Origin: Bacteroidales bacterium
GTDB taxonomy: Bacteria > Bacteroidota > Bacteroidia > Bacteroidales > P3
Assembly: GCA_017545365.1 (NCBI GenBank)
Contig: JAFWOP010000054.1
Location: forward strand, 1 to 20,470
Reading direction: 5' to 3'
Length of the DNA: 20,470 nt
The position numbers were made by a program, and so were the translations under genes. Below the pieces are notes generated by a model. That model saw nothing but the letters and a program-made list of their open reading frames with translations, made no database searches and was not told the origin of the DNA. Shown here piece by piece: positions 599-15,151 of the stretch (position 1 is its first letter; every line of letters begins with the position of its first letter).

Positions 599-1299
599 TA
601 TTTTTTTCAAAAAAAGTTTCATTCCATTTGTAAATTTCAGTATATTTGTATTTTATGACTAGGTATTTTTTTATCCTCCATCAACCCCATATCTTTTCCC
701 ACCAAAAAATACGCCAGCCACCCACATTATTAGCCATAGAACCTCCCCTCATGAAATCCACATCCTTCAAAAAACATCCTCCCTCGTACCTTCGTTCTAT
801 AAAGCGGACAGAAAAAAGTAATTGATATTTTTTTTATACAACAAGGTGAACTGGGTATTAGCCAATGAATTAGTCTAAAATGAATTTCGGTGGCATAAAA
901 AAAACGACCATTTTTTTTTCGTATTTTGACCCTGAAATGTCGTTATTTTTGACACTTTTTTTCGTTTTTCGTTTGACGTTTTGTAATGTCGCCGTCTCCC
1001 GCGAAATATTTTATAGATAAGGAACATACATATTGTGTTTAGTTTCTTTTCTCCTCTGCAGGATAGGGGGGATTTTTAATAGAAAAAGACAAACAACAAA
1101 CGACATTTTTTCGAACAAAAAGTCACTTTTTGGACGATTGTTTTATTTGTCCTCATCTTTTCAGCTCCGGTATGCCTCTGGGATGCTTCCGGGATGCTTC
1201 CAAGGTGGTTCCGAGAAATGGTCAGAGTCATGTCGAAGTTATCACGGTATCATCTATAAAAAAAACACGAAAAATTTATGCTAACAGACTGTTCTCCCA
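599..1299. other. AT-rich intergenic stretch without a supported gene
   Basis: The stretch is dominated by A and T runs and by low-complexity stretches (for example 900-980). The two open frames here (1033-1284 and 1130-1411, plus strand) have no recognisable motif, overlap each other and are made partly of T-rich sequence, so I do not call them. An 11-bp unit, GGGATGCTTCC, is exactly duplicated in tandem at 1180-1190 and 1191-1201. Nothing else is supported. Confidence 0.5.
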
Positions 1300-1309
1300 A
1301 CCTAGGACT

Positions 1310-1411
1310 AAGTTGCAGTTCGCTCGGCGAACTGACCTTCGCGATTTGATCGGTCAGACCGTAGTCAGCGAGAAACTTGTCAAAGTTCGCAACTTTCCCG
1401 AAAATCGCTGA
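1310..1411. repeat. Block of interlocking inverted repeats
   Basis: About 100 bases of higher GC within AT-rich DNA contain four perfect inverted repeats: 1310-1316 with 1389-1395 (AAGTTGC), 1316-1323 with 1327-1334 (CAGTTCGC, 3-base loop), 1341-1347 with 1402-1408 (GCGATTT) and 1365-1371 with 1405-1411 (TCAGCGA). The first and third pairs cross, so they cannot all form in one simple hairpin. A 57-codon minus-strand frame (ATG at 1423) runs through the block. It could be a decayed gene or insertion-sequence remnant, or a structured RNA. Confidence 0.5.
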
Positions 1412-1483
1412 ACAAACATCCATAATCCGCTCAAGAATAGGGAATAAATCATATTATTTGCTTTTACAATCAGCTGATTTAAA

Positions 1484-1491
1484 TATATTTG
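1484..1491 (+). promoter_or_regulatory. Weak candidate -7 element
   Basis: TATATTTG fits TAnnTTTG. The nearest TTTG upstream (1457-1460) is 23 bases away, longer than the usual 19-21, so this is a weaker candidate than the one at 1537. Confidence 0.25.
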
Positions 1492-1516
1492 TAAAGAATC
1501 TTATTCTAGAAAGGCG

Positions 1517-1544
1517 TTGGTATTGAAAAAAAAGTGTATATTTG
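1517..1544 (+). promoter_or_regulatory. Likely promoter of the nine-gene unit and its leader
   Basis: TATATTTG at 1537-1544, followed by CA, is a perfect -7 element. A TTG at 1517-1519 lies 17 bases upstream, slightly short of the usual spacing, so the -33 element is weak and an activator is possible. The predicted start is near 1551, leaving a leader of about 300 bases before the first start codon. Confidence 0.55.
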
Positions 1545-1550
1545 CACCCG

Positions 1551-1854
1551 ATTTTCCAGCAAGAGTCATGCTGGATGATGCGAAAAAGCATTTGTAAGGT
1601 CCGAAAACTGAAATATCGCCAAAATATCAACCCAAGGACTCTGATACTAATGCCTTTTGCTTTGCCTTTATGTTGGCCGTTCTGGCTTCAGCATATTGGG
1701 GGCATAGGATAAGGTTCAATCAGTTTCTATTTGGGTAAGGCGTTTGGCGATGCCTCAGTTTCATAGGACTGCGCAACACGAGTTCTATGCTTTTTTTGTA
1801 TATCCGCAAACTGAGGACCCATAGCGGTATAGATTGAATCAAACAACACATAAT
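1551..1854 (+). ncRNA. Structured leader or small RNA upstream of the operon
   Basis: Pairings seen directly: hairpin 1556-1560/1570-1574 (CCAGC/GCTGG), whose loop bases 1562-1567 (AGAGTC) can pair with 1637-1642 to give a pseudoknot. A competing pairing of 1598-1602 with 1636-1640 would exclude that pseudoknot. A short hairpin lies at 1578-1581/1588-1591. A terminator-like hairpin is at 1762-1789, enclosed by the 9-bp pair 1753-1761/1808-1816. An outer 9-bp pair with one G-U, 1713-1721/1832-1840, ends 14 bases before the start codon. The region has no open frame worth calling. It may be an attenuating leader or a free-standing RNA of about 250 bases ending at the T-run (a 6S-like RNA is one possibility). 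I recognise no known family. Confidence 0.45.
1762..1797 (+). terminator. Terminator-like hairpin inside the leader
   Basis: A 9-bp stem with one G-U pair (1762-1770 with 1781-1789), a 10-base loop and then a run of seven T (1791-1797). It lies 57 bases before the operon start codon. It would either end a separate small RNA or act as an attenuator for the downstream genes. Confidence 0.5.
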
Positions 1855-3129
1855 ATGACAATTACATTTAAAGGTACAAGATTATTAATCGCTGCATTGC
1901 TGATAGCCACAACAAGCGCATGCAGTGGTCCTCAGCACAACGAGAACGAGTATTGGGTTGACAGTGTCTCACCATCCAATAATTCGGCAACACGTACGAC
2001 CACAACTCAAAATACAACCCCAGTCGCCAAAAAGACGAAACCATCGATATATGTGTATGTGGAGAACTCAGGCAGTATGTATGGCTATGTGGGAACTGGA
2101 GATGGAAGTGACTTTAGAAATATGGTTTACAATTATCTCACTGATATAAAGTTATCGGACTTGTTTGCCAATATGCACCTCAATTTCGTAAATAGTTCTG
2201 TAATACCAAAAGGTTCTGCTGTTGACGTTTTCGTAAAGAATTTAAATCCAACATCATTCAAAGTGTCTGGTGGTAATAGTGGTGCAACTGACATTTTGGA
2301 GATAATCAAACGGGTATATCCGAAGAGTGGCGATGTATCCGTGCTCATTTCCGATTGCATTATTTCACCAGGTAAAGGAAATAATGCGTCAGAATACCTT
2401 GAAGCACAACAGACAGGTATTAAGGGTTTTATGGGGCAGAAAAACTTAAGGAATAGTGGTGTAATAGTATACCGAATGCTTGGTCGGTTTAAGGGCTATT
2501 ACTACGACACTGTGGATAACAAGCAACAGTATGTAGGTATTCGCCCTTATTATGTTTGGGTTATGGGTGATATGTCGGCATTAAAAGGTCTGAGGGTGGT
2601 TACCGAGCCTAAGATGAAAGCCAAACCTGACCAAATCTGTGTCATATCAATGGGCGATGCAAAGCCGAAATACGGCATAGTACGTGGCGGTGGCAATTAT
2701 AAAGTGGTAAATTATAACACTATACAGAAAGTGAAAAAGATGAAAACAATGGGTGGGAAAAGAGTGGTAATCAAAATGAATGTCGACTATTCAAACATAC
2801 TACAAGATAGTGCCTATTTGACTAATATTTCGTATTATCAAATTGACAACCCTTCGTTCAGGATAGATAACATTATAAAGATGAAAAATACAGATAATTA
2901 TATCATTACCATGTCATCTCCGATTAACATGAACGGCACTCTGACAGTGCGGTTGAAAAACAAGCCTCCGCAATGGGTGGTTAAATGTTCAGATTGTGAT
3001 GGGGGATTCCCTGATCCAAATGCCAAGCCTCAGACAACATACGGCCTTGCTTATCTGATAGGCGGAGCATATGACGCATATACGGACAAAGGTAATAACC
3101 TTGCTGAAATGAAAATTAACATCAAATAA
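1855..3129 (+). CDS. Lipoprotein with von Willebrand A-like MIDAS domain
   Basis: First gene of the unit, 424 residues from the ATG at 1855. An in-frame TTG at 1834 is possible, but it lies inside a leader stem and would put seven polar residues before the signal peptide. The signal peptide ends in a lipobox (TTSAC, Cys23), predicting a lipid-anchored periplasmic or surface protein. A low-complexity Ser/Thr/Asn linker follows. Then comes a VWA-like core: a strand YVYV, then E70-N-S72-G-S74, T145 (GATD) and D167 (ISDC), matching the MIDAS pattern DxSxS...T...D except that the first Asp is Glu. VWA domains bind partners through a metal ion. The C-terminal 200 residues look beta-rich and are unrecognised. 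The stop is 9 bases before the next gene. The fold assignment rests on motif order and is fairly secure; the partner is unknown. Confidence 0.75.
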   Translation: MTITFKGTRLLIAALLIATTSACSGPQHNENEYWVDSVSPSNNSATRTTTTQNTTPVAKKTKPSIYVYVENSGSMYGYVGTGDGSDFRNMVYNYLTDIKLSDLFANMHLNFVNSSVIPKGSAVDVFVKNLNPTSFKVSGGNSGATDILEIIKRVYPKSGDVSVLISDCIISPGKGNNASEYLEAQQTGIKGFMGQKNLRNSGVIVYRMLGRFKGYYYDTVDNKQQYVGIRPYYVWVMGDMSALKGLRVVTEPKMKAKPDQICVISMGDAKPKYGIVRGGGNYKVVNYNTIQKVKKMKTMGGKRVVIKMNVDYSNILQDSAYLTNISYYQIDNPSFRIDNIIKMKNTDNYIITMSSPINMNGTLTVRLKNKPPQWVVKCSDCDGGFPDPNAKPQTTYGLAYLIGGAYDAYTDKGNNLAEMKINIK

Positions 3130-3138
3130 TAAAATGCT

Positions 3139-3642
3139 ATGGCTAATTTCTTTGGAAACATCTACTATCTGTTTGTAGGCCTCTTCGGCCAGTATTTAAG
3201 TGACTATCTCTGGGGCTTTAATTGTGCGACACAGGCCTACGATGCAAAAGCACACTATCTCCCAATAGGTCTTGTGATGACTGTAGTCACGGTTGTGTTG
3301 TTTGCGGTCTATTATTTTGCAATAAATCATCCGAGGCTAAACAAGTGGTGGCACTGGTTGATTGCAGGCAGCATTGTCCTGATTGTTAATTTTGTAGTTG
3401 GTGGCTCATGGGTGGATTACCATCTTCAAAACGGATTGATACCCGATTGCCTGTTACAATCCCAGCAGCCTGAAGGCTCCAGTGTAATAACCATTACAGA
3501 TATGGATTGCTGGATGTTTGGGTTGGCAAATGGCATTGTGTCGTTCTTGTTGTTTTTTATATTATCAGTTGTTTTCAAGCGGTGGAGCCGCAACTGTCGC
3601 CACACACCATGGAGAAGTATATTTCCGAAAAGAAACAAATAA
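3139..3642 (+). CDS. Small four-helix membrane protein of unknown function
   Basis: 167 residues with four hydrophobic stretches, at roughly residues 6-26, 41-62, 73-94 and 127-146, and a basic tail (KRWSRNCRHTPWRSIFPKRNK region) that should lie in the cytoplasm. The loop between helices 3 and 4 holds two Cys (LIPDCLLQ, DMDCWM) and would be periplasmic if the tail is inside, so a disulfide is possible. I recognise no family. Its place between the VWA lipoprotein and the tubulin-like gene, with 9 and 15 bases on either side, suggests it is an inner-membrane anchor or part of the same complex. The start ATG at 3139 follows an out-of-frame ATG at 3134. Confidence 0.7.
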   Translation: MANFFGNIYYLFVGLFGQYLSDYLWGFNCATQAYDAKAHYLPIGLVMTVVTVVLFAVYYFAINHPRLNKWWHWLIAGSIVLIVNFVVGGSWVDYHLQNGLIPDCLLQSQQPEGSSVITITDMDCWMFGLANGIVSFLLFFILSVVFKRWSRNCRHTPWRSIFPKRNK

Positions 3643-3657
3643 ACACTAAATAAGGAT

Positions 3658-5064
3658 ATGAGCAAACTATATGTATTTGGAATAGGTGGTACGGGTGCAC
3701 GAGTGCTGCGCTCACTCACAATGCTTCTTGCCTCTGGCGTGAAGTGTAATATGGATATTTCCCCAATCATCATCGATCCTGACAGTGGTGCAGACAGCCT
3801 TACGAAAGCAGTCAAGGCACTGGACGAGTACACTGATGTACGCAATAAACTAAATTACAATAGCGGGAACAACCGCTTCTTTGGGACAAAGATTTATGAA
3901 GATGTCCCCCGCTATTATATTCCGCTACAACACACCGCTAACAAGACGTTTGATAATTATATCTCACTCCCAACTATGTCCCAGCAAAATCAGGCCTTGA
4001 TGCGTATGCTCTTCTCTGACGACAATTTGGCTTCTGGCATGCAGGTGGGGTTTAAAGGGAACCCAAATATTGGAAGTGTAGTATTGAACCAATTCGTCAC
4101 ATCAATGGGATTCCAAAGTTTTGCCAATGCGTTCCAGCAAGGAGATCGTATTTTTATCATCAGTTCCATTTTTGGAGGAACAGGTGCAAGCGGGTTCCCG
4201 CTGCTTTTAAAAACGCTGCGAGCCAACAACACTATACCGAACTTCAATCTAATCAACAACTCAGCCATCGGTGCTATCACCGTATTGCCATATTTCACCG
4301 TAACTGTTGACGAGCAAAGTAGCATTGACTCGTCCGACTTTATTGACAAGACTAAATCGGCTTTGGCATACTACGACACCAATATTACTGGTACGAATTC
4401 CATCGACAGGCTATACTATATTGCTGATACGTTAACACCTACGTACACCAACAGCGAAGGGGGCAAAGAACAAAAGAATGAAGCCCATATAGTTGAATTG
4501 CTGTCAGCATTGGCTGTGGTTGATTTTGCCAATGCTCAAATACAAGGTGCAGGACAAAACACAACCTGTTTTGAGTTTGGCTTGAATAATAACACTGACG
4601 GCAATACAAAAACAGTGACTTTCTCCGAGTTAGGGGACACCACAAAAAAGCAGATTGCAAAACCGTTGACATGTTTCCTACTTTTTAGCAAATACCTTGC
4701 CAATGCCTGCAAAGGGCAATACCGCTACCAGCCGTGGGCTATTGATGCCGGATTTGATGGTACATTTTTCTCTTCTGAGTTCGAAAAGAAAGTGGAATCA
4801 GTTCTCGGCCTCTATGACCAGTGGCTTAGAGAGCTTGCCGAAAATACACGGGCTTTCGCCCCATTCGACCTCAAGAAGCAGCAGAACATATTCAAGATGG
4901 TCCAACATGTCGAACCACGACGCACTTACATGAATAATTACGCCCTCTTCGATAATGCCCTCAACGCCCAACATCGTCCAGCTGGCATCAGCAACGAACA
5001 GTGGTTTGTAGACCTGTTCTTCCAAGCAACAATTAATTTAATCACAAGCAAATTCAACTTATAA
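3658..5064 (+). CDS. Tubulin/FtsZ-superfamily (tubulin-like domain) protein
   Basis: 468 residues, cytoplasmic, with no signal peptide. The N-terminus FGIGGTGARVL (glycines 8-13) is the first nucleotide-binding loop of tubulin-like proteins. SSIFGGTGASG places the tubulin signature loop GGTGASG at residues 173-179, close to the GGGTG(T/S)G of FtsZ and tubulin. The long insert between the two loops is usual for the bacterial 'tubulin-like' (Tubulin_2 type) family rather than FtsZ. GTP binding and GTP-dependent assembly are expected from the superfamily but are not shown here. The stop overlaps the next start by one base (TAATG at 5062-5066), so translation is probably coupled to the actin-like ATPase. 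FtsZ itself is unlikely: overall sequence is divergent and no division genes are nearby. Confidence 0.8.
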   Translation: MSKLYVFGIGGTGARVLRSLTMLLASGVKCNMDISPIIIDPDSGADSLTKAVKALDEYTDVRNKLNYNSGNNRFFGTKIYEDVPRYYIPLQHTANKTFDNYISLPTMSQQNQALMRMLFSDDNLASGMQVGFKGNPNIGSVVLNQFVTSMGFQSFANAFQQGDRIFIISSIFGGTGASGFPLLLKTLRANNTIPNFNLINNSAIGAITVLPYFTVTVDEQSSIDSSDFIDKTKSALAYYDTNITGTNSIDRLYYIADTLTPTYTNSEGGKEQKNEAHIVELLSALAVVDFANAQIQGAGQNTTCFEFGLNNNTDGNTKTVTFSELGDTTKKQIAKPLTCFLLFSKYLANACKGQYRYQPWAIDAGFDGTFFSSEFEKKVESVLGLYDQWLRELAENTRAFAPFDLKKQQNIFKMVQHVEPRRTYMNNYALFDNALNAQHRPAGISNEQWFVDLFFQATINLITSKFNL

Positions 5065-8000
5065 TGGCTCATATATTTCGCCTCCACCCAAACGGGGCAA
5101 ACATCAACCCCGACTGGCAGCAGTGCCAGCCATATAGCACAAATGTAATATCTCAGATAGTGCCTCCAAATGGCATGACCGCCAAAACGGAAATAACATC
5201 TATTCCTTCACCTTTCGCCCGAATTGCACTGGTGAAGAGTGCCTTTGGTCAGGCCTCCAGTGACTTGGACGGCAATACAATCTATCACAAAATGGTGTCA
5301 GACAGCCTTGATGTGGCCGAAATATTCTTCAACTACGACAGGTTGGGGAAAATGTTTCAAATTTTTGTATGGGATGTGAATGCAGATATGGCGGCCATGG
5401 CTCAAACACATTCCGAGATATACAACACGTTAGATGTATATTTGAAACAAGATGCCGCCACTTATAATTTTGACAGGATGAAACGTCTTTACGTACTTGT
5501 GTATGTCGGCGAAGGTAGGAAGACTCAGATGGATGTAGTAGGGGCTACATCACCGGCATCTCTCTTCTTCACGCCAGCCAACGACTTGTCATATATTTCC
5601 CCTCATATTTCTTTCGGACAGGATCATCCTTTCGATGGCAGTTTCCAACCATTATACAAGCGGGATCCTTCATTTATTGAATACCTTTTCGCATTCAGCA
5701 AGAGGTATGGGCAGTTTGCCAATGACTTTCCTGAGGTTCACAACTACCTTAATGAGACATTCAAAAAACTGCCACAGCAGATGAAGAATAATGTCAGTAA
5801 CCTGACTGCTACGGCAGTGAACAACTATCTGCCACTACAATTAGACGCTGCCAACACGGTAGATATTTTGGGAATGCCATATCATAAGAAACCCGTCCAA
5901 CCAATTAGAAAAAGTGACTTTATTATTGCCCATAGCCATTACAACAGTAATATTCAGCCTCTGGTTCTACCGGTAGATAGTGGTAATAAATACGCTGGTA
6001 TGTATTACATTGTAGATAAGTGGGGGGCAAACAAGGCACCATATTACGATAACACCCAATGGCTGCAACGAGTTTTGCCACAAGATGGAACACCCCATCC
6101 CTATCTGACAATAAGTGACTTTTTGGAAGATACCATTCTCTTTTATCCCAGAAAGGCTAATACAGGCAAGTTCTTCTTTGGTAATTGGGATGTCTCTAAT
6201 GAGGCGAGTGTCATGCTTCCTCTGAAACCTCTTTTCTTCGAATTCTTCACGGTTGACCAACTGATCAAAGGTATTAATGGAGTGCCTATGCTCACCATGA
6301 GTCGTATTAATACAAATGGCATAGAGGTTCATCTCAACATACCTATTGCTGGTGGTAGTGTTGAATACACAAGAAACTATTATCATAATGCGGTACCTGA
6401 TGCCGACCAAAACAGAGGTTCTATTAATACTATCTCCACATCGTTTGGTTTGGCTATGATGCCGATGGTGCATTGCAATAATCCCTTTGATCGTATTGCC
6501 ATAACGCATGTCTTTAATGACCCTCATCAGTACAAGCTGGACTGCTATTATGATGGCAAAGTGATTAACGGCATACAAGAGGTCGTAAGGAATCAGACGG
6601 ATAAAGCCTACCTAAAAACACATATCTTCATTAACGAGAAAGGTCCGATAGATTACATTCGTATTGGAGTCGGAACTGTTTATGGTGTTGTTGTGCCAGA
6701 TTACAATCAAGCGCAAAAGAATAAAAATTACACATTCGCGGTAGACTTTGGAACTACAAACACACATATAGAGTATACCGATGGTTCATTTGCAGCTTCG
6801 GACTTTAAAGACTGCCAGTTGACATTTTGGGCAGATTATCATGCACAAATAGTGCAAGCCTTCGAAGCAGACCTTGAACCCTTTGAGATAGGGGACAGGT
6901 TTAAGTTTCCAACACGAACAGCCTTATCAGAAGCATCTTTTACCAATTGGAAACAACCAGTTATACCCATGGCTCAGACAAATGTGCCGCTAATATATGG
7001 GCATCGTCCAATCTTTGACTTTAACACCATTACCACTGACCTGAAATGGAGCAATGACCCCGACAACATAAGCAAAGTAAGGAGTTATATTGAGAACCTT
7101 ATGATTATGATGAGAAACAAGGTTCTGTTGGAAGGTGGTAATTTGGACAACACCAAAATAATATGGTTCTATCCGGGTTCGATGACAACTGCAAGACGCA
7201 ACCAATACCAAACGGTTTGGCAGGACGCATTCATAAAATATTTTGGTGCACCCCAGACGAACATCTCTGCCACACTTGAATCGGTAGCCCCATACGAATA
7301 CTTCCGCCGCCAGAGTGCTGCCGCGTCCCGTATGGTGAGTATTGATATTGGAGGAGGCACAACAGATGTGGTTATCGCTGAAAGGGGAAACATCCTTTAT
7401 ACTACCTCATTCCGCTTTGCTGCAAATAGCATATTTGGTGACGGCTATACACAAAACAATGTCATTAATGGTCTTGTGGCTAATTTTGTTGATGATATTG
7501 AAGAAAAATTAGGAAGTAATAGTTTGGATGACCTGAAAGATATTCTCCAATCGCTTAAGGCAAAAGGGGTATCGGCAGATTTGGCATCTTTCTTCTTCTC
7601 TATGAAGAATGATGACAAGGCTATAGAGAGAAGTGCATTCCATCTGCTTGACTGGAACAAGATGCTTCAACAGGATGACAAATACAAGGTTGTGTTCTTG
7701 CTTTTCTATACTGCAATCATCTATCATATAGCCCATATCATGAAGGGCAAAGAACTAGAAATGCCACGCCATATAGCTTTCTCGGGTAATGGCGCACGGG
7801 TCGTTTCTGTATTGAGTCCCAGCACGGACACATTGGCCGATTATACGATGGACGTTTTTTGTCGTGTATATGGCATTAACCAATACCATCAGGATGGGCT
7901 TGATGTTATTTTAATTGACAACCCAAAGGCTGCAACCTGTAAGGGGGGGATAAATATTGTTCAAAATAACAACGTCAATATTGGCATTGGCCAGAAAGTA

Positions 8001-8333
8001 CTGCTCAAAAGCCATAAAGATAAGTCGTTTTTTACCCAAGACAGCACCTATTCCGAAGTCAATACGCTGAAACAAATCACTATCGATGACGTCCGCAATT
8101 TTATCAGTTTTGTGCTGGAGGGTAAAACCCGGTTCTCCGTTAAAGATGAATTTGGGATAAGCCAAGTTGGTATAGATACAGCAAAGATAATTTGTTATAG
8201 AGATTTGGACACTTTTTTCGACAACGGTATGCAAGAGAAACTAAAAGAAAATAGTGTCACTGATCCAATAGAAGAACCACTTTTCTTTTACCCCATCATA
8301 GGAATGCTCCACGAACTTTGTAATAACCTTTAA
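5064..8333 (+). CDS. Large protein with C-terminal actin/Hsp70-like ATPase domain
   Basis: 1089 residues, cytoplasmic. The C-terminal half shows the three signatures of the actin/Hsp70/hexokinase fold in order: phosphate-1 VDFGTTNTHIE (D561), phosphate-2 SIDIGGGTTDVVIAE (D761) and the adenosine motif AFSGNGARVV (G908). The spacing fits a Hsp70/ParM-type ATPase domain of about 400 residues, followed by about 130 further residues. The first 550 residues form a separate region with no motif I can name and no transmembrane segment. Being fused to this region and coupled to the tubulin-like gene, it is unlikely to be a general chaperone; no Hsp70 substrate-binding domain is apparent. ATP binding is well supported; polymer formation is a guess. 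A gap of 11 bases separates it from the next gene. Confidence 0.85.
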   Translation: MAHIFRLHPNGANINPDWQQCQPYSTNVISQIVPPNGMTAKTEITSIPSPFARIALVKSAFGQASSDLDGNTIYHKMVSDSLDVAEIFFNYDRLGKMFQIFVWDVNADMAAMAQTHSEIYNTLDVYLKQDAATYNFDRMKRLYVLVYVGEGRKTQMDVVGATSPASLFFTPANDLSYISPHISFGQDHPFDGSFQPLYKRDPSFIEYLFAFSKRYGQFANDFPEVHNYLNETFKKLPQQMKNNVSNLTATAVNNYLPLQLDAANTVDILGMPYHKKPVQPIRKSDFIIAHSHYNSNIQPLVLPVDSGNKYAGMYYIVDKWGANKAPYYDNTQWLQRVLPQDGTPHPYLTISDFLEDTILFYPRKANTGKFFFGNWDVSNEASVMLPLKPLFFEFFTVDQLIKGINGVPMLTMSRINTNGIEVHLNIPIAGGSVEYTRNYYHNAVPDADQNRGSINTISTSFGLAMMPMVHCNNPFDRIAITHVFNDPHQYKLDCYYDGKVINGIQEVVRNQTDKAYLKTHIFINEKGPIDYIRIGVGTVYGVVVPDYNQAQKNKNYTFAVDFGTTNTHIEYTDGSFAASDFKDCQLTFWADYHAQIVQAFEADLEPFEIGDRFKFPTRTALSEASFTNWKQPVIPMAQTNVPLIYGHRPIFDFNTITTDLKWSNDPDNISKVRSYIENLMIMMRNKVLLEGGNLDNTKIIWFYPGSMTTARRNQYQTVWQDAFIKYFGAPQTNISATLESVAPYEYFRRQSAAASRMVSIDIGGGTTDVVIAERGNILYTTSFRFAANSIFGDGYTQNNVINGLVANFVDDIEEKLGSNSLDDLKDILQSLKAKGVSADLASFFFSMKNDDKAIERSAFHLLDWNKMLQQDDKYKVVFLLFYTAIIYHIAHIMKGKELEMPRHIAFSGNGARVVSVLSPSTDTLADYTMDVFCRVYGINQYHQDGLDVILIDNPKAATCKGGINIVQNNNVNIGIGQKVLLKSHKDKSFFTQDSTYSEVNTLKQITIDDVRNFISFVLEGKTRFSVKDEFGISQVGIDTAKIICYRDLDTFFDNGMQEKLKENSVTDPIEEPLFFYPIIGMLHELCNNL

Positions 8334-8344
8334 TTAGCATAGGA

Positions 8345-9208
8345 ATGAAAACTATAGTTAGGATATTATTATTTGCTGCGACTATTGCATTAGTGTCATG
8401 TCATGGACCACGGGAGAAAGATGTCAGTCAAAATATTAAATCTCCAACGAATACAAGTTATAATGCAACAGAACATCCGGGAACAGGGGACTCCTCTCAA
8501 TTTGCACAACCGAAAGGCGACCGAGAGTATGAGACAACAGCAGAACAAGACGAAATAAAGGAAGAACATAATGCACCCTTTGGGTTTCCCAACTGGCTTT
8601 TATCTCTCATAGTAATTGTAGAAGGACTTGTTATCATTATTCTTTTCTTAAAGGATAGAAAGTGTCTAAAAGAGATAAAAGATGACATAGATTATGCCAA
8701 TAAAAGAATAGATGAAAGAAAAAAAGAAATATTCGCTTTAGGTAATCCATATAGCTATGGCAATGAAAACCTCCACCAGGGATTCACCAATAGCAATAAG
8801 GATAAACAGAATCGTCAATTCGTTTCTAAAGTAGAACAAAAAGATGTATCTGCACCTGAGTCTGAGAAGGCAGAATTAAGGGCACACGAACATAAAGTGG
8901 ATAATCAGGATTTACTTCAGGTTTATGTACGGCATTACAAGGATGATATTCTTGAGCCAGTAGACAAAGATGGTGCATTTTATGAAGTAAATTATCCACC
9001 AGATAACAAAATAGGTTCTTTTACTTTTGTCGGAGACTCACATACTGCAATTAAGAATAGAAGTTCCGAAATCGATGGGGTTTGTGATGCAACTGGTATA
9101 AGTAGTATCGCAAAAAGCATTAAGACAACTAAGTGGGGCAGATGCGAAAGGATGTCAGACGGCAAATGGAAAATATTAGAAAGAGCACAGATAACCTTTG
9201 AACAATAA
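8345..9208 (+). CDS. Lipoprotein-like protein with a second membrane helix
   Basis: 287 residues. The N-terminus MKTIVRILLFAATIALVSC is a signal peptide with lipobox LVSC (Cys20). About 55 polar residues follow, then a strong transmembrane helix (residues 82-101, in NWLLSLIVIVEGLVIIILFL) and a basic, charged stretch KDRKCLKEIKDD. If Cys20 is lipidated, the first segment is periplasmic and the 185-residue C-terminus lies in the cytoplasm, an unusual layout that could pass a signal across the inner membrane. The C-terminal 95 residues (from LLQVYVRHYK) are probably a small folded domain that I do not recognise. The gene lies between the actin-like and MotA-like genes, 11 and 6 bases from them. 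Confidence 0.7.
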   Translation: MKTIVRILLFAATIALVSCHGPREKDVSQNIKSPTNTSYNATEHPGTGDSSQFAQPKGDREYETTAEQDEIKEEHNAPFGFPNWLLSLIVIVEGLVIIILFLKDRKCLKEIKDDIDYANKRIDERKKEIFALGNPYSYGNENLHQGFTNSNKDKQNRQFVSKVEQKDVSAPESEKAELRAHEHKVDNQDLLQVYVRHYKDDILEPVDKDGAFYEVNYPPDNKIGSFTFVGDSHTAIKNRSSEIDGVCDATGISSIAKSIKTTKWGRCERMSDGKWKILERAQITFEQ

Positions 9209-9214
9209 CCGACT

Positions 9215-10795
9215 ATGCATTACGTAATTATTGGACTTATAATTGTTTACATCTTGTATAAACAATTCACAATCTTTAATGATACAAGAAAACGTTTAGA
9301 TACTTTTGGTGATATATTCCCAGATTCATTAAGTGAAGAATATAAGGTTGGTAAGCGTGGTGTAATACTTGTCATAGATACAGAAGAATCCATTAATAAG
9401 GAAATACAAAGGATTGATAATGAGATTGATAAGACTGCAGATTTGGCATATTTAGATTTATTGCGAAGTGAGCGTAGAAGATTGTCACAACTTTTGTACA
9501 ATATAACGAATAGAAAAACTAACAGCGTTTGGGACAAAATCTTATCAAGTATCAACCGTTATCTTGAAAAAAATAAAGGAAGTGTGAGTGACTTCCACCT
9601 TATAAAAGACATTGTTGACCGTAATTGTGATGCCGAAGAAGAGGCCATTCAAACACAGGTTCCAATGCCACTCTATTATGGCTTGATGGGTACAATGGCT
9701 GGTATCATCGTTGGAGTAGGCTATCTGTGGCTTTCTGGAGGACTAAAGGCTCTATTGAGTATGAATCCACAAGCAGGAGTGACTTCAGCAGATGGTATAG
9801 TTGCTCTTTTAGGTGGCGTAGCACTTGCTATGATATGTAGCATTTTTGGTATTTTCCTTACTACAAACAGTTCGTCACGCCTCAAAGATGTCAAAATTAC
9901 ATTTGAGGAACGAAAACATAAGTTCCTCAGTTGGATGCAGGCTGAGTTGCTGCCGAAGCTGAATAATGACTTTGCTGATGCAATGACTAAAATGACATCA
10001 AATCTGTCCCGATTCAACGAAACTTTTTCTGAGAATGCAGACAAGTTACGCAGTACGCTCTCTATTATCAATCAAGCCACTAATGGTCAAGCACAAATAC
10101 TGTCGGCAATTGATAACCTTAAAATTTCCAAGATTGCTACCGCAAATATTGAGGTATATGACAAACTAAAAAACTGTAGTGACGAAATCGGTATGTTGTC
10201 TAAGCAACTGGAAATCAGCCGACAATATCTTGAAGAGGTTCGAACCTTGAACGATAAATTAGACGCATCTGAACAGCGTACCCGTACGATTGAGGACATG
10301 GCATTATTCTTCAAGGAGGAGCGAGGAAATATAGGTGCCATGCAGTCGGTCTTAAATCAGGCTATCGGGGATATTCAAACCAATCTGCGTCAATCAATCG
10401 AAAGCCTAAAGGAAGAGTCGGCTAAGCAGATTTTTGAACTGGTCGCCCACAACACCGAACAGCGTCAGCGTCTGCAAGCTGCTATCAATGATCAAGAGAC
10501 TATTCTACAGCAAAAAACAGCTGAGATTAATCGCCTTATAGATAATCTTAGTTCGGTAGAGAAAATGGTAAAAACTCTTGACTCTTCGGCAAACAAGCAA
10601 ACTAATGCCATATCCTCATTGGCAAAGGATATTAGAGACCTTGCCACTCAGAAGGTCAGCGGAACTATAATGGTGAAACCTGAAAAAATGCCCAAGTGGA
10701 CAAGAACACTGATTATCATTGGTGGGTCGATAGTCACAGCCTATTGCCTTTTGTCACTTACGCTTTGGATTTTAAACCTGATTAACGTATTATAA
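9215..10795 (+). CDS. MotA/ExbB/ZorA-like membrane protein with long coiled-coil tail
   Basis: 526 residues. Membrane segments: residues 2-17, 155-175, 195-217 and a C-terminal helix at about 499-525. The second carries PMPLYYGLMGTMAGI (150-164), the Pro plus GLLGTxxGI pattern of the MotA/TolQ/ExbB proton-channel family; the third, ALLGGVALAMICSIFGIF, fits the partner helix of that family. Residues about 220-490 are Leu/Gln/Glu/Lys-rich and heptad-like, a long cytoplasmic coiled coil as in ZorA of Zorya defence systems and unlike MotA or ExbB. The extra C-terminal helix is not a ZorA feature as far as I know. It is followed after 2 bases by a MotB-like partner, the normal order for such pairs. 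An ion-driven channel or motor subunit is well supported; its output is unknown. Confidence 0.8.
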   Translation: MHYVIIGLIIVYILYKQFTIFNDTRKRLDTFGDIFPDSLSEEYKVGKRGVILVIDTEESINKEIQRIDNEIDKTADLAYLDLLRSERRRLSQLLYNITNRKTNSVWDKILSSINRYLEKNKGSVSDFHLIKDIVDRNCDAEEEAIQTQVPMPLYYGLMGTMAGIIVGVGYLWLSGGLKALLSMNPQAGVTSADGIVALLGGVALAMICSIFGIFLTTNSSSRLKDVKITFEERKHKFLSWMQAELLPKLNNDFADAMTKMTSNLSRFNETFSENADKLRSTLSIINQATNGQAQILSAIDNLKISKIATANIEVYDKLKNCSDEIGMLSKQLEISRQYLEEVRTLNDKLDASEQRTRTIEDMALFFKEERGNIGAMQSVLNQAIGDIQTNLRQSIESLKEESAKQIFELVAHNTEQRQRLQAAINDQETILQQKTAEINRLIDNLSSVEKMVKTLDSSANKQTNAISSLAKDIRDLATQKVSGTIMVKPEKMPKWTRTLIIIGGSIVTAYCLLSLTLWILNLINVL

Positions 10796-10797
10796 CT

Positions 10798-11436
10798 ATG
10801 TCCACCAAACAAAAGAAAGAGTCGTTCTTTTGGACTAGCTACTCTGACCTCATGACATCGATGTTCTTCGTCATGCTGGTATTGTTTGTACTGGCTATAG
10901 GCCTGCTGCATCGTAAAGTTGTCGCCACTGAGGCCCAGTTGGAAAAAATACGCAAACTGGAGGCCTCAATAAGTAAGATTGATACTGACTATTTTGAATA
11001 TAATGAAGAATATAAACGACATACGCTTAAGAATATTTCTGTAAAATTTGAAGAGCGATCAAGCAATATAAATGATATTGATGACATCTACTTAGACCGA
11101 TTGCTTCAAGCGGGTAATTCCATAGTTAAATTCATGGAGCAAGCAAAAGACTCTATCCCTGATGCAGAATATCTGTTAATAATTGAAGGGCAGAGTTCTC
11201 GTGACAATTATTACGACAATGATTGTTTAAGTTATCGTAGGGCATTAGCACTTGTTAATTTTTGGAAAACTAATGGCATACTATTTGACAATCTGCCATG
11301 CGAAGTTATTATTTCGGGTAGCGGTATTTCAAGCCGTTTCAGAGTGTCTCCTGATGTAAAAGGGAACAAGGCAAACCAGCGTTTTGTAATACATATCATC
11401 CCGAAACCTGGCAACTTTACAAAAAAAGGAAATTAA
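10798..11436 (+). CDS. MotB/ZorB-like protein with OmpA-like domain
   Basis: 212 residues. A short cytoplasmic N-terminus leads to FFWTSYSDLMTSMFFVMLVL, the MotB pattern in which the Asp (D17) at the start of the single membrane helix carries the ion. A coiled linker follows, then an OmpA-like peptidoglycan-binding domain at about 125-205, with EGQSS, a SYRRALALVNFW helix, the GSG turn and a final NQRFVIHI (the usual N-x-R-V end). The protein should join the inner membrane to the cell wall and, with the preceding MotA-like protein, form an ion-driven stator. It is short for MotB but similar in layout to ZorB. The next gene begins one base after its stop. Confidence 0.85.
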   Translation: MSTKQKKESFFWTSYSDLMTSMFFVMLVLFVLAIGLLHRKVVATEAQLEKIRKLEASISKIDTDYFEYNEEYKRHTLKNISVKFEERSSNINDIDDIYLDRLLQAGNSIVKFMEQAKDSIPDAEYLLIIEGQSSRDNYYDNDCLSYRRALALVNFWKTNGILFDNLPCEVIISGSGISSRFRVSPDVKGNKANQRFVIHIIPKPGNFTKKGN

Positions 11437-11437
11437 T

Positions 11438-11962
11438 ATGAAGAAGTGTCGATTATTACTACTAACCATAATCCTTTTTGTTGCATGCGGGCCAAGGTCT
11501 TCTATTCATCCAGTAGGCAATACTCATGCCAGTCACTCAAAAGCACCGTCTCATCAGCCAACGTGGGCTAAAGGTGGGAAAACTGTGGTCCCGATGCATC
11601 GTGAAAATGGCGTTTGCTACGTGGTGGTCAAAATAAATGGTGTTGATATGGAGGTCATTTTTGACACCGGGGCATCGGATGTTGTCATCTCTTCTATTGA
11701 GGCATTATTTCTCTTAAAACAGGGCAAGCTCACGGAAGATGACATAATCGGTACATCATATTTTCAAGTGGCAAATGGCGGCGTATCGGCAGGAACGGTG
11801 GTTCGACTCAGTTCCGTCCAAATCGGTGACAAGGTGTTGTCTGATGTTCGAGCCACTGTTGTTGATAATATGGAAGCACCGCTCCTTCTTGGTCAATCGG
11901 CATTGGACAGGTTCTCATCTGTCAGTATTGATTATAGTAGGAATGTGATATACATTGAATAG
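11438..11962 (+). CDS. Lipoprotein retropepsin-like aspartic protease
   Basis: 174 residues. The signal peptide MKKCRLLLLTIILFVAC has a lipobox (FVAC, Cys17), so the mature protein is lipid-anchored outside the cytoplasm. The C-terminal 110 residues match the single-domain clan AA aspartic protease pattern: VKINGVDMEVIFDTGASDVVIS with catalytic D76 in DTGAS, a mid-domain ANGG flap-like turn, and LLLGQSALDRF near the end, equivalent to the LLG-x-S-x-L signature. Such proteins work as homodimers, each giving one Asp, and usually cut a few specific substrates. The substrate may be another member of the complex or the nuclease encoded next. The stop is 7 bases before the next start. Confidence 0.8.
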   Translation: MKKCRLLLLTIILFVACGPRSSIHPVGNTHASHSKAPSHQPTWAKGGKTVVPMHRENGVCYVVVKINGVDMEVIFDTGASDVVISSIEALFLLKQGKLTEDDIIGTSYFQVANGGVSAGTVVRLSSVQIGDKVLSDVRATVVDNMEAPLLLGQSALDRFSSVSIDYSRNVIYIE

Positions 11963-11969
11963 GTGGAAG

Positions 11970-12722
11970 ATGGAGAGGCTTTTTTATATAATACTCATAG
12001 TATCACTTATTCTGCTGATTAATTGTTCTCCACCTGATAACAAGCGTAGTGCTACTAGTAATCATAATAGGATTTCTTATTCAGGCTTCATAGTACAGTA
12101 CAATGCTAACAACCGGCAACCCGACTGGGTGTCTTATACACTGACGGCGCAGCAGGTGTATGCCACTGAAAACACCCCAAAGATACCTCATCAGTTTGGT
12201 CCGGACCCTAATCTGAATCTCCCACAGGCCTCAAATGACGACTATAAAGGCTCGGGATGGTCAAGGGGACATATGGCGCGACATCAGGACATGAAATGGT
12301 CGGTTCAAGCAGCCCATGAGAGTGACTACTACACCAACATATGTCCGCAGAACAGTGGAATGAACAACGGGATATGGAAGCGCATCGAAAACAAGGCGCG
12401 CGACGTGGCCAAACGCTACGGCTCGGTGACTATCGTATGCGGCCCCGTCTTCACGGATACCGCCAACGGCACCATAGGGGCTGACCAAATACCTGTGGCT
12501 GACTTTTTTTTCAAAGCGTTCCTTGTATCAAGCAATGGGCAGTACCACTCCATTGCCTTCCTTTGCCCAAACGAGGCGACACACATGGGTATCAGGACCA
12601 CCGCATGCACGGTCAACCAGATAGAAGCCGTGACAGGTCTGAACCTGTACACTTTCCTCGATGATAAAATTGAGGAAACGGTTGAAGACGAGTTCGTATA
12701 CAGCCTATGGGGGATGCAGTAA
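11970..12722 (+). CDS. Lipoprotein DNA/RNA non-specific endonuclease (NUC1 family)
   Basis: 250 residues from the ATG at 11970; an in-frame TTG at 11955 would overlap the protease gene and is less likely. Signal peptide with lipobox LINC (Cys19). The nuclease core has SRGHMARHQDM (catalytic H101 in the DRGH-type motif, with the first Asp replaced by Ser) and MNNGIWKRIE, where N132 and E140 keep the Asn-x7-Glu spacing of Serratia nuclease metal binding. The VCGPVF strand is also typical. It should be an exported, membrane-tethered enzyme that degrades DNA and RNA, placed in the periplasm or on the cell surface. It is the last gene of the unit. The second half of the gene is visibly richer in GC than the rest of the operon. 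Nutrient scavenging is an alternative role. Confidence 0.88.
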   Translation: MERLFYIILIVSLILLINCSPPDNKRSATSNHNRISYSGFIVQYNANNRQPDWVSYTLTAQQVYATENTPKIPHQFGPDPNLNLPQASNDDYKGSGWSRGHMARHQDMKWSVQAAHESDYYTNICPQNSGMNNGIWKRIENKARDVAKRYGSVTIVCGPVFTDTANGTIGADQIPVADFFFKAFLVSSNGQYHSIAFLCPNEATHMGIRTTACTVNQIEAVTGLNLYTFLDDKIEETVEDEFVYSLWGMQ

Positions 12723-12782
12723 CAAGTTTTTTTGTGCCTAAGGTATCTTTCGGTGGGTTCTAAATATTCTGTTTCAGGTTTT

Positions 12783-12882
12783 GCCCTTACAGGGCGTTGT
12801 TTGTAACTCATTGATTTACCCAAGGCGTTGCCATTGGGCTAGATGTGTTTATGTCCTTTCAGGGCAATTTTTAGAGGTTGCC
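12783..12882 (+). repeat. Partial copy of a hairpin-rich mobile repeat
   Basis: Contains hairpin 12783-12787/12791-12795 (GCCCT/AGGGC), pair 12819-12823/12834-12838 (CCCAA/TTGGG) and a small hairpin at 12855-12863. It ends with AATTTTTAGAGGTTGCC (12866-12882). The same end motif closes the element at 14907-15036, and a related fragment lies at 20411. The left inverted end is missing here, so this looks like a truncated copy. Confidence 0.55.
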
Positions 12883-12986
12883 TTGTACAAGGTGGCCTAA
12901 CGACCGATTTGGGTTGAGGAGGCCTTCACGGGTCTGTACTGCGCCAACAACTGAAGGCCAGCCAAGCCGATTCACGTATGGTCGTT
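12881..12986. repeat. Nested palindromes in the operon-ATPase junction
   Basis: A 12-bp perfect palindrome CCTTGTACAAGG (12881-12892) is followed by two nested inverted repeats: AACGACC (12899-12905) with GGTCGTT (12980-12986), and GGCCTTCA (12921-12928) with TGAAGGCC (12952-12959). The nested pair could fold into one long stem with an internal loop. No gene is apparent. Confidence 0.5.
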
Positions 12987-13000
12987 CTGCTGACACTGAA

Positions 13001-13066
13001 TGTTGCATAAGGTGAGAGCAGAGAGAGCTTGCTCGCTATGCCGAGCCAAGCAACGTCACGGAGTAA
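13001..13066 (-). repeat. Single inverted copy of the 66-bp repeat
   Basis: This is the reverse complement, with a few mismatches, of the 66-bp unit repeated four times at 14608-14871. The single copy and the array therefore bracket the ATPase gene in opposite orientation. The plus-strand open frame through it (13000-13320) is an artefact of the repeat and of the antisense of the ATPase gene. Confidence 0.8.
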
Positions 13067-13118
13067 AGAGAGCATCCGCGCGTGTAGTGATAGTCAATCC
13101 CGATTTTGACAGGCGATT

Positions 13119-14396
13119 TCATGCGCCCAGGCAGCCAATGGGCACCACGTATACTCCGTCGGTTCGGCGGAAGGGGTATTCTCCCACTCCTGTCAGCACC
13201 ATCTTGAATGAGGGCTCTCTCATCTTGCTGGTGTCTATCTTTTCGGCTAAGGCATTGAGGGTCTTAACTCCATCTTCTATCAAGGTGTTCCCTCCCAGTT
13301 TTATCTCTACCAAACCATAATCGCCATTGCGCAGGTGGATGACAGCATCGCATTCTAAGCCGCTCCTGTCTCGGTAATGGTACACTCTGCCATCCAATGT
13401 GTCGGCATAAACACGCAGGTCACGTACCGCCATGGTTTCGAACATGAGTCCCATGGTATTCAGGTCTTGTGTAAGGTCGGCTGGTGACACCCCTAGAGCG
13501 GCAGCGGCTATAGAGGAATCGTTGAAGTAACGGGTGTCGGATGTGCGGATTGCTGTTTTAGAACGGAGGTTGGGGTTCCATGCAGGCAAGTCATCTACCA
13601 CGAATATGCTCCTTAAGGCATTCAAATATAGGGTGAAACTACTTTCCCCCAAGGAGCCCTCATCGTTCAAGGCCATATCTTGACGAATGGTTTCTAATGA
13701 CACTTGTGCTCCTTGGTGTCGTGCCAACGAGCGGGTGAGCCGCCTTGCCATTTCTGCATTTCTATGAATGCCGTCAACTCGCGAGATGTCGGATTCGACT
13801 ACCGCGTCGTAATAGTCAAATGCTAGGGCAAGGGCATCTTCGTCATCCTTGCCGACAGAGTTGGGCCAGCCTCCCCGACAAATCAGGAATGCCAACCGAC
13901 GAAGGTCTATGTCGGCAATACCTCGGGGCTGTTCATCATGTTTTTCAAACAGCCATCGTATACTTACAGCACCTGAGGAGTCGCCAGATTCAAATAATGA
14001 CATTGTCCGCATGGTCAGTCGCGCGAATCGACCGGTACCAGTGTGATGGATCTCGTCTGATTTGGGAGGGACCGCCGATCCTGTCAGAATAAACTGTCCT
14101 TCCGATTTGCGATGGTCTACTTCGTAGCGTACTGCATCCCATAATTGGGGTATCATCTGCCATTCGTCCATCAGGCGTGGCGTATTTCCTTGTAACAGTG
14201 CACTGATATTTAGTTCAGCTGTCTGACGATATATTTTTTGCTTTTCGGGATCATCAAGATATATCGTACTGGCTGCAATTTGCTCTGCTGTGGTTGTCTT
14301 TCCACACCATTTTGGGCCTTGAATCAGCACAGCACCAATTCTGCGGAGCATTTTATTTAACTGAATATCAGCAATGCGAGGTCTATATCTATTCAT
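13119..14396 (-). CDS. AAA ATPase with DUF4143 domain
   Basis: 425 residues read from 14396 down to a TGA at 13121-13119. Walker A is GPKWCGKT (residues 27-34), Walker B RLMDEW (D77, E78) and sensor-1 ILTGSA. The C-terminal part matches the DUF4143 / restriction-endonuclease-like half found in this family, including LECDAVIHLRNGDYGLVEIKLG. The E-(x)-K of VEIKLG and the D of LECDAV are the usual PD-(D/E)xK-like positions. This ATPase family is abundant and often multi-copy in Bacteroidales; its function is not established. It stands alone on the minus strand, convergent with the nine-gene unit, and is surrounded by repeats, which suggests it is a mobile or easily exchanged cassette rather than part of that unit. 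Confidence 0.88.
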   Translation of the reverse strand: MNRYRPRIADIQLNKMLRRIGAVLIQGPKWCGKTTTAEQIAASTIYLDDPEKQKIYRQTAELNISALLQGNTPRLMDEWQMIPQLWDAVRYEVDHRKSEGQFILTGSAVPPKSDEIHHTGTGRFARLTMRTMSLFESGDSSGAVSIRWLFEKHDEQPRGIADIDLRRLAFLICRGGWPNSVGKDDEDALALAFDYYDAVVESDISRVDGIHRNAEMARRLTRSLARHQGAQVSLETIRQDMALNDEGSLGESSFTLYLNALRSIFVVDDLPAWNPNLRSKTAIRTSDTRYFNDSSIAAAALGVSPADLTQDLNTMGLMFETMAVRDLRVYADTLDGRVYHYRDRSGLECDAVIHLRNGDYGLVEIKLGGNTLIEDGVKTLNALAEKIDTSKMREPSFKMVLTGVGEYPFRRTDGVYVVPIGCLGA

Positions 14397-14418
14397 TTTT
14401 CATCAATATTTTCTGATG

Positions 14419-14426
14419 CAAAGATA
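14419..14426 (-). promoter_or_regulatory. Candidate -7 element of the DUF4143 ATPase gene
   Basis: On the minus strand TATCTTTG (14426-14419) fits TAnnTTTG and is followed by CA. It lies 22 bases before the start codon. A TTTG is present only 12 bases upstream, so the -33 element is poor and its usual place falls at the beginning of the 24-bp repeats. Confidence 0.5.
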
Positions 14427-14442
14427 CATATTTTTTGACAAA

Positions 14443-14562
14443 CCACGGCATTTGGCCACAAAATTACCACGGCATTTGGACATAAAACCGCCACGGCATT
14501 TGGACATAAAGCCGCCACGGCATTTGGCCACAAAACCGTCACGGCATTTGGCTATAGGGTTA
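14443..14562. repeat. Five tandem copies of a 24-bp repeat
   Basis: Units start at 14443, 14467, 14491, 14515 and 14539, each opening with CCACGGCATTTGG (the last with TCACGG). They differ at the positions after TTGG (CCACAAAA, ACATAAA or CTATAGG). The array sits directly upstream of the ATPase promoter. Because 24 is a multiple of three, it leaves open frames on both strands that give false repeat proteins. Confidence 0.9.
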
Positions 14563-14607
14563 GAGGTTAGGTGTTGGAGGAATGCTTGGTTGTCTGATTG
14601 CTTGATT

Positions 14608-14871
14608 GTTACTTCGTGACGTTGTTTGGCTCGGCAAAGCGAGCAAGCTCTCTCTGCTCTCACCTTATGCAACGTTACTTCGTGACATTGTTTGGCTCGG
14701 CAAAGCGAGCAGGCTCTCTCTGCTCTCACCTTATGCAACGTTACTTCGTGACGTTGCTTGGCTCGGCAAAGCGAGCAATCTCTCTCTACTCTCACCTTAT
14801 GCAACGTTACTTCGTGACGTTGCTTGGCTCGGCAAAGCGAGCAAGCTCTCTCTGCTCTCACCTTATGCAAC
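14608..14871 (+). repeat. Four tandem copies of a 66-bp repeat
   Basis: Units begin at 14608, 14674, 14740 and 14806, all exactly 66 bp and nearly identical. Each holds a short hairpin (GTTAC-TTC-GTGAC), a stronger one (GCTCG, loop GCAAAG, CGAGC) and a pyrimidine-rich tail ending CACCTTATGCAAC. There are no unique spacers, so it is not a CRISPR array. The unit length of 22 codons keeps frames open on both strands (14403-14981 minus, 14606-15028 plus), but the protein would only mirror the repeat. Confidence 0.92.
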
Positions 14872-14906
14872 GTTTGAGTATTTTTATCGCGGCAGAAAAA
14901 TCTCAA

Positions 14907-15036
14907 GGCAACCTCTAAAATTAGGATTTGAGAGCGCGTCTCTTCGAGACGCATTTTATATCTTGTTGATTCCCCCCACACTAGCGTGTGGGGTTATTGA
15001 TAGTTTGTCCCGTTGGGATAATTTTTAGAGGTTGTC
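14907..15036 (+). mobile_element. MITE-like element with terminal inverted repeats
   Basis: A 130-bp unit bounded by imperfect inverted ends of about 17 bases: 14907-14923 (GGCAACCTCTAAAATTA) and 15019-15036. Inside are three hairpins: 14936-14942/14946-14952, 14974-14981/14986-14993 and 15008-15011/15015-15018. It has no coding capacity. The right end motif recurs at 12866-12882 and partly at 20411-20421, so this is a dispersed family. No clear target-site duplication was found. Confidence 0.6.
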
Positions 15037-15117
15037 TCAATTAAAATGACTCACACATTAACGAATTAGCGCATTCACACATTCAAGCATTCAAGAGTTC
15101 ACACATTTTTTCCATGA

Positions 15118-15151
15118 TTTGTGCATAATTCGATAAATATGTGTAAATTTG
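15118..15151 (+). promoter_or_regulatory. Promoter of the M1 peptidase cluster
   Basis: TAAATTTG at 15144-15151 followed by CA is a good -7 element, with TTTG at 15118-15121 as the -33 element (spacing 22, slightly long). The predicted start near 15157 gives a leader of about 43 bases. Short imperfect CACACATT/GCATTC repeats at 15050-15105 precede it. Confidence 0.6.

Follow-up and report, generated by a model that had tools for sequence, protein, structure and literature searches.

A horizontally acquired Bacteroidales operon joining tubulin- and actin-family proteins, a ZorAB-like motor pair and exchangeable enzymes

What could a bacterium do with a tubulin-like protein, an actin-like protein, a Zorya-like motor pair, a protease and a nuclease that are all encoded in one operon? 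The question is raised by a 20,470-nucleotide stretch of DNA from a Bacteroidales bacterium (assembly GCA_017545365.1, contig JAFWOP010000054.1, positions 1 to 20,470 of the forward strand), hereafter the window. Between positions 1855 and 12722, ORF calling gave nine tightly packed open reading frames on the plus strand, spaced by -1 to +15 bases if gene 9 starts at its ATG, which confirms the layout proposed in an earlier, sequence-only reading of the window. The operon itself, its conservation, its insertion, the co-inheritance of genes 3 and 4, the similarity of its motor pair to known motors and the swapping of its enzymes were observed directly. Because the motor is closest to that of Zorya, the operon is a patchily distributed island and its exported-type proteases and nucleases are swapped, we favour, at slightly less than even confidence, the reading that the products of this acquired operon would form one envelope-spanning anti-invader machine, in which wall damage, acting through the Zorya-like motor, would direct a periplasmic protease and nuclease onto incoming DNA.

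The nine genes and their products

The genes are listed below, where counts out of 84 refer to 80 genome loci, three loci from a viral collection and the window, several of the loci being cut by contig ends. The genome loci are the best 80 of 436 confirmed gene 3 relatives from a scan of public genomes.

1855..3129, + strand: gene 1, vWA-fold protein with a lipoprotein-like N-terminus and a variant MIDAS motif, ENSGSM, E replacing D
3139..3642, + strand: gene 2, small protein with three transmembrane (TM) helices predicted from hydropathy; homologue in 81 of 84
3658..5064, + strand: gene 3, tubulin/FtsZ-superfamily protein of 468 residues with the GTP-loop FGGTGASG; Tubulin_2 E 1.4e-4, below cut-off
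5064..8333, + strand: gene 4, protein of 1089 residues with an actin/MreB-fold domain at about residues 553-979
8345..9208, + strand: gene 5, protein with a lipobox, a TM helix and a C-terminal domain predicted to be cytoplasmic; homologue in 70 of 84
9215..10795, + strand: gene 6, ZorA/TolQ/ExbB-like motor subunit (assigned via relatives) with a coiled-coil region and an extra C-terminal TM helix
10798..11436, + strand: gene 7, ZorB/MotB-like protein with an OmpA-like domain and a TM helix carrying Asp17, invariant in the alignment; ZorB1 9.4e-12
11438..11962, + strand: gene 8, retropepsin-type aspartic protease (DTGA) with a lipobox; PF13975 1.9e-16
11970..12722, + strand: gene 9, DNA/RNA non-specific (NucA-type) endonuclease with a lipobox; PF01223 2.5e-48; alternative TTG start at 11955

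Only genes 8 and 9 exceeded the Pfam cut-offs; sub-cut-off matches were obtained to Tubulin_2 (21.7 bits for gene 3, cut-off 27), FtsA (1.8e-4), MotB_plug (0.011) and OmpA (0.019). A gene 3 profile found nothing better than E 0.11 in the PDB. PF13809 is annotated on many gene 3 homologues and the GTP-loop motif is present in 76 of the 84 sequences, while structure comparison assigned the C-terminal half of gene 4 to the actin/MreB fold, in line with the tubulin and actin identities first proposed from sequence. No Pfam VWA match was found for gene 1, the predicted structure of which aligns mainly with vWA/I-domains. The lipobox pattern was passed by genes 5, 8 and 9 of the window and by 59 of 79 gene 1 proteins, though not by gene 1 of the window itself; the Cys23 of that gene is retained by at least 90% of the 28 relatives in its alignment.

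Gene 6 of the window had no motor-family match in Pfam or PADLOC profile searches. Its relatives matched ZorA (best 2.6e-7) and, in four of 21 cases, MotA_ExbB (best 7.5e-6), and they share the conserved motif PxPLYxGLxGTMxG; the coiled-coil matches of gene 6 of the window in PADLOC were to LeoBC (2.5e-8), JetC and LmuB. The top match of a gene 6 N-terminal profile was lactose permease (6.6e-4, with ZorA at just 0.59), which we rejected as chance similarity between TM helices. For gene 7, the best PDB match of the profile, which aligns to MotB/OmpA chains, was 8vvn (6e-14), a type I ZorB (PMC11890865). Judged by these profile comparisons, the motor pair is closest to ZorAB and lies within the wider TolQR/ExbBD class. 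The earlier inference of a single machine spanning the envelope, with a motor pair like that of Zorya, is supported.

Recurrence and insertion as an island

Profiles made from the window detected genes 1 to 4 in 82, 81, 84 and 83 of the 84 sequences, genes 5 to 7 in 70, 68 and 59, and genes 8 and 9 in 13 and 20. These counts are descriptive and no independent test, because the profiles were trained on those very loci. Apart from a few duplicated or displaced genes the order was constant, and nearly all of the 80 genome loci carried genes 1-4 in this order; the gene order is not due to chance. The unit recurs, but its composition is not constant, since the enzymes are exchanged and the motor pair is absent in some relatives.

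Among 247 genomes of one order, gene 3 matched in 11 (E up to 1e-20) and gene 4 in 13 (E up to 1e-10). The strong matches to both genes fell in the same 10 genomes, one of which, the search centre, was known beforehand, and formed 11 adjacent pairs; the other genomes, one for gene 3 and three for gene 4, matched weakly. At the level of the phylum six of 296 genomes matched, the known search centre included. The genes are therefore neither universally conserved at one site nor scattered, two outcomes that would have spoken against the sequence-only reading, and genes 3 and 4 travel paired and adjacent. We rejected a core housekeeping operon on account of this patchy distribution and the empty insertion sites described below. 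Two plasmid records and three viral-collection loci, two of them alike in layout, also matched, while no match was found among phage records; a prophage or phage gene set was rejected on these grounds. Weak, distant relatives of gene 3 and/or gene 4 occur in four places (G016:C251, with about 2.5 kb between them, G020, G038 and G039) and possibly represent a second, divergent type of system.

In the window the operon lies between a Band_7 gene (positions 1-477, PF01145) and an M1 peptidase gene at 15200, which are 14.7 kb apart, and the inserted stretch was delimited as follows.

608..15150, no strand assigned: inserted island, bounded on the left at 607/608 and on the right, approximately, a short way before the M1 peptidase gene

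The same two flanking genes were adjacent in seven of seven fetched relatives, with 155-227 bp between them (tblastn edges). Of 101 genomes, 64 gave a peptidase match, and the seven relatives belong to the eight best of these; in the eighth, the peptidase gene begins 528 bases from a contig end. Nucleotide similarity on the left ended at 607/608 in six of the seven and at 598 in the other (blastn). Six of these empty-site relatives had no gene 3 match at 1e-10, and the seventh (G680) carried gene 3 on another contig (E 1.3e-223), where genes 1-8 stand in order, 35-80% identical, up to the contig end. The second site (L029) is unrelated to the first; there the operon and a Pfam phage integrase (tyrosine recombinase) are found between a GSCFA gene and purE-purL. 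Of eight relatives fetched for that site, two had GSCFA and purE adjacent (327 and 333 bp), neither with gene 3, one had them 6.7 kb apart, and in the remaining five the stretch that was fetched showed no GSCFA gene. The site is thus not fixed, with two different empty sites and a third location of the operon in one relative. The GC content of the operon was below that of its flanks in 47 of 54 loci, which are not fully independent (mean difference 7.7 points, Wilcoxon p 1.6e-8), and a recombinase family stood immediately 5' of gene 1 in eight of the 84 sequences, the member at L029 being the phage integrase named above. The operon is a horizontally acquired island.

Several other features accompany the operon. 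Within the island, positions 12852-15037 hold an AAA_14/DUF4143 ATPase gene (13119-14396, minus strand) between 32-base direct repeats (78%); an inverted arm of 68 bases lies at 12999-13066, and tandem units of 66 bp occupy 14608-14874. Judged by these repeats, the stretch looks like a nested mobile unit. Upstream of gene 1, inspection of the sequence gave one candidate signal.

1537..1545, + strand: promoter-like TATATTTGC, possible start of a leader of about 300 bases before gene 1

We take TATATTTGC to be promoter-like from its agreement with the Bacteroides -7 consensus. The leader would span 1537-1854, and relatives repeatedly show a gap of at least 200 bases 5' of gene 1. The window contained no Rfam match at gathering scores and no tRNA. 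Among neighbouring genes elsewhere, a Myroides locus (L067:2-6800) carries TerY-type vWA, PP2C phosphatase, kinase and DnaJ genes 5' of the operon, and an AAA_21 ATPase and DUF4435 gene pair lies near the operon in another (L017:1653-3502).

An exchangeable enzyme slot and a shared tag

The positions of genes 8 and 9 proved to be a slot with changing content. We took the plus-strand genes within 4 kb of gene 7 in the 56 loci where gene 7 is present and followed by one or more genes, and checked one or two members of each slot family against Pfam. A protease and/or a nuclease occupied the slot in 51 of the 56. Single enzymes were a serine protease (20 loci), a NucA-type nuclease (10) or an aspartic protease (6), and NucA was paired with a serine protease in four loci and with an aspartic protease in three, the window among these. 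Less frequent combinations were serine protease with SNase (3), serine with aspartic protease (1), serine protease with an alpha/beta-hydrolase-like protein and NucA (2), and aspartic protease with an exo-endo-phosphatase-fold nuclease, either alone (1) or together with SNase (1). One locus had a transglutaminase-like protein and four had none of these; two further nucleases of such kinds, in L028 and L076, are encoded next to the operon on the minus strand. A trypsin-like protease was present in 30 of the 56 loci, and wherever both kinds of enzyme occurred the protease always came first.

On a 56-row tree of gene 3, the protease class requires 12 or more changes and the nuclease class 15 or more, compared with means of 22.8 and 21.9 after shuffling, and one locus with aspartic protease and NucA (L039) is nested among serine-protease loci. 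The slot enzymes are partly inherited and often swapped. In six loci (L008, L013, L021, L023, L024 and L032) a protein family that is zinc-ribbon-like in the members inspected stands at or near the position of motor and enzymes, and may be an output module of another kind.

A lipobox or another hydrophobic N-terminus was found in 30 of 30 serine proteases, 20 of 21 NucA proteins, 12 of 13 aspartic proteases, four of five SNases and three of three exo-endo-phosphatase-fold proteins. Beyond the putative lipid-anchored cysteine, 22 of 59 lipoprotein enzymes of the slot carry the pattern C-x-[HRKN]-x-S-[GR], which is found in one of 79 candidates from the flanks, one of 65 gene 1 proteins and one of 39 gene 5 proteins; many of the serine proteases are close kin, and an independent set is called for because the pattern was found by inspecting these same data. 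The nine following positions held 3.15 basic residues in slot enzymes against 1.19. When enzymes of unrelated fold were compared over this region, the mean BLOSUM score was 5.5 in 13 within-locus pairs and -1.1 between loci, a within-locus value matched in one of 10,000 draws, with a few pairs driving the result and five of the 13 scoring below zero. These comparisons suggest that unrelated slot enzymes often have a common basic tag after the lipid-anchored cysteine.

Proposed function, rival explanations and known systems

If the anti-invader reading holds, a phage perforating the envelope would lead the OmpA-like domain of gene 7 to grip peptidoglycan, and ion flow would then move gene 6, the coiled-coil region of which would signal to a putative assembly in the cytoplasm, made up of the products of gene 3 (tubulin-like) and gene 4 (actin-like). 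Genes 2 and 5 could tether this assembly to the membrane, with the vWA lipoprotein tying it to the periplasm. The assembly would gather or unlock the lipid-anchored protease, which in turn may switch on or set free the nuclease, likewise lipid-anchored, so that DNA is cut on its way through the periplasm, and the shared tag might keep the enzymes in one place. A bolder version, which we regard as possible yet doubtful, is a cytoskeletal inflammasome: triggered by the Zorya-type motor as it grips the wall, the tubulin- and actin-family proteins would jointly deploy the interchangeable enzymes, directed by their common tag, in the periplasm and destroy viral DNA before entry.

Several results weigh against an anti-invader role. 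Clustering with known defence genes, suggested earlier as a check, was not borne out, since a PADLOC scan of 148 of 303 eligible flank proteins gave 64 families at 1e-8 with no clear excess over a control of 148 proteins (of 202) taken at 20 arbitrary places in carrier genomes, which gave 45 families, those listed having higher member counts. Within the operon no PADLOC match was obtained at E up to 1 besides those of gene 7 to ZorB and of the gene 6 coiled coil. Where the enzymes are located is predicted from lipobox and hydropathy patterns, and 30 of the 56 slot loci are without a recognised nuclease. Lastly, a plasmid of Picosynechococcus PCC 7003, typed as mobilizable, carries a five-gene core without motor or enzymes: genes for vWA-like, small TM, tubulin-like, actin-like (1096 residues) and gene 5-like proteins, ordered as in the window and with several copies of the last. 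Profiles of genes 1, 3, 4 and 5 scored 20, 155, 119 and 30 bits there, with E-values of 1.6e-7, 1.9e-48, 9.6e-38 and 2.6e-10 that refer to a search of nine proteins only, and the counterpart of gene 2 was recognised solely from its place and TM-like appearance. This plasmid showed no motor pair; motor and nuclease are therefore not essential to the role of the core. From this gene content, an older core seems to have been joined by motor and enzymes as a module.

Such a core would also suit a machine for membrane remodelling or for vesicles and secretion, in which the cytoskeletal pair shapes the envelope, the motor pushes peptidoglycan and the enzymes are cargo, an explanation that we consider unlikely but the best of the rivals. 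FtsZl1, vWA and OmpA proteins have been linked with membrane remodelling in the account of Makarova and Koonin (2010; PMC2875224), and the enzyme-free plasmid core agrees with it, as does an additional FtsZ gene next to the operon in one genome. That gene, in the cultured carrier Bacteroides acidifaciens DSM 15896 (L046:18837-20093), encodes a complete FtsZ (PF00091, FtsZ_C) directly 3' of the operon's protease gene, is 57% identical to the genome's other FtsZ and may link the system with cell division. The patchy island distribution and the repeated swapping of protease and nuclease, however, fit conflict better than housekeeping.

Less probable still is foraging or uptake of macromolecules, with lipid-anchored enzymes digesting outside polymers and the motor energising import as in Ton/Tol. 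The lipobox or hydrophobic N-terminus of most slot enzymes and the placing of the motor within the TolQR/ExbBD class would suit this improbable role, but no recurring family of outer-membrane receptors or transporters was seen among the flanking-gene clusters, which were partly annotated, and tubulin- and actin-family partners would be unexpected. We consider very improbable a service module for segregation or transfer of a mobile element, in which the tubulin- and actin-family proteins would play the parts of TubZ and ParM, since, for all the island insertion, the recombinase family directly 5' of gene 1 in eight loci and the core on a mobilizable-type plasmid, just two plasmid and no phage records match, and segregation needs neither envelope proteins nor lipobox enzymes.

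How, then, does the operon relate to known systems? To Zorya it is linked by adjacent ZorA-like (gene 6, through relatives) and ZorB-like (gene 7) genes and by a nuclease within the operon. In Zorya, an ion-path Asp and peptidoglycan binding are reported as required for defence (PMC11890865). Here, by contrast, the nuclease has a lipobox and is predicted to be periplasmic, and tubulin, actin and vWA partners are present. As to the long free cytoplasmic tail of ZorA, the picture in gene 6 is mixed, with coiled-coil-like matches at about residues 250-511 but a further TM helix predicted at 499-517. We rejected membership of Zorya, as gene 7 scored 27.9 bits against a curated ZorB equivalog cut-off of 400 and PADLOC gave no match at E up to 1 to the type-defining effectors ZorC/D, ZorE and ZorF/G among the nine proteins.

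The DO-GTPase/GAP1 conflict systems (Kaur, 2020; PMC7159879) are predicted to combine tubulin-family, Hsp70/actin-superfamily and vWA proteins with variable effectors. No P-loop GTPase family was found among our nine proteins (Pfam, E up to 0.1), the word MotA is absent from the main text of that paper, and its single 'Zora' is an author name. The NucA-trypsin systems of the same source (System 3) place a NucA-type endonuclease beside a protease, and a proteolytic cascade with release of NucA-type nucleases is proposed there; the window differs in its aspartic protease and in the envelope machine upstream. SNIPE, a membrane-bound nuclease, is likewise reported to act on entering DNA, cutting that of phages during genome injection, but has no cytoskeletal or motor partners according to its abstract (PMC13190303). 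SNIPE and the predicted systems of PMC7159879 serve as precedents for the anti-invader reading.

The closest precedent is the divergent FtsZ-like family FtsZl1, which Makarova and Koonin (2010; PMC2875224) linked with vWA, OmpA, GTPase and kinase genes, proposing membrane remodelling and including a Bacteroides sequence in their alignment; this agrees with the computational link named in the sequence-only reading, and part of the present association was foreseen there in 2010. In both cases a divergent tubulin-family gene stands beside genes for vWA, OmpA-type peptidoglycan-binding and membrane proteins, represented here by the vWA gene of the operon and by gene 7, an OmpA-type protein by profile alignment, its Pfam OmpA match (0.019) lying below cut-off. 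FtsZl1 is described with an extended coiled coil and a helical C-terminal domain after the FtsZ-like domain; gene 3 has just 468 residues. The sections of that paper drawn on here mention neither a tubulin-like protein of this length nor an actin-fold partner, a motor like ZorAB or an exchangeable protease/nuclease. A description of the full nine-gene set was not found in the open-licence literature, most matches being judged from listings, as the earlier claim of no such system had anticipated, and neither was a tested function of the machine predicted in 2010.

If the anti-invader reading is true, this would be a defence that uses both classic cytoskeletal folds jointly and acts in the periplasm with swappable enzymes; even as envelope remodelling, a transferable operon of tubulin, actin and motor families would be unusual. 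With its exchangeable slot, common tag and cleanly empty sites, the operon makes the function of the 2010 FtsZl1-vWA prediction directly testable. In conclusion, we regard the operon as a variant of the predicted FtsZl1-vWA kind and, by the profile comparisons above, not as Zorya, and it adds to that prediction an actin-fold partner, a ZorAB-like motor, an exchangeable protease-nuclease slot, a shared tag and evidence of insertion.

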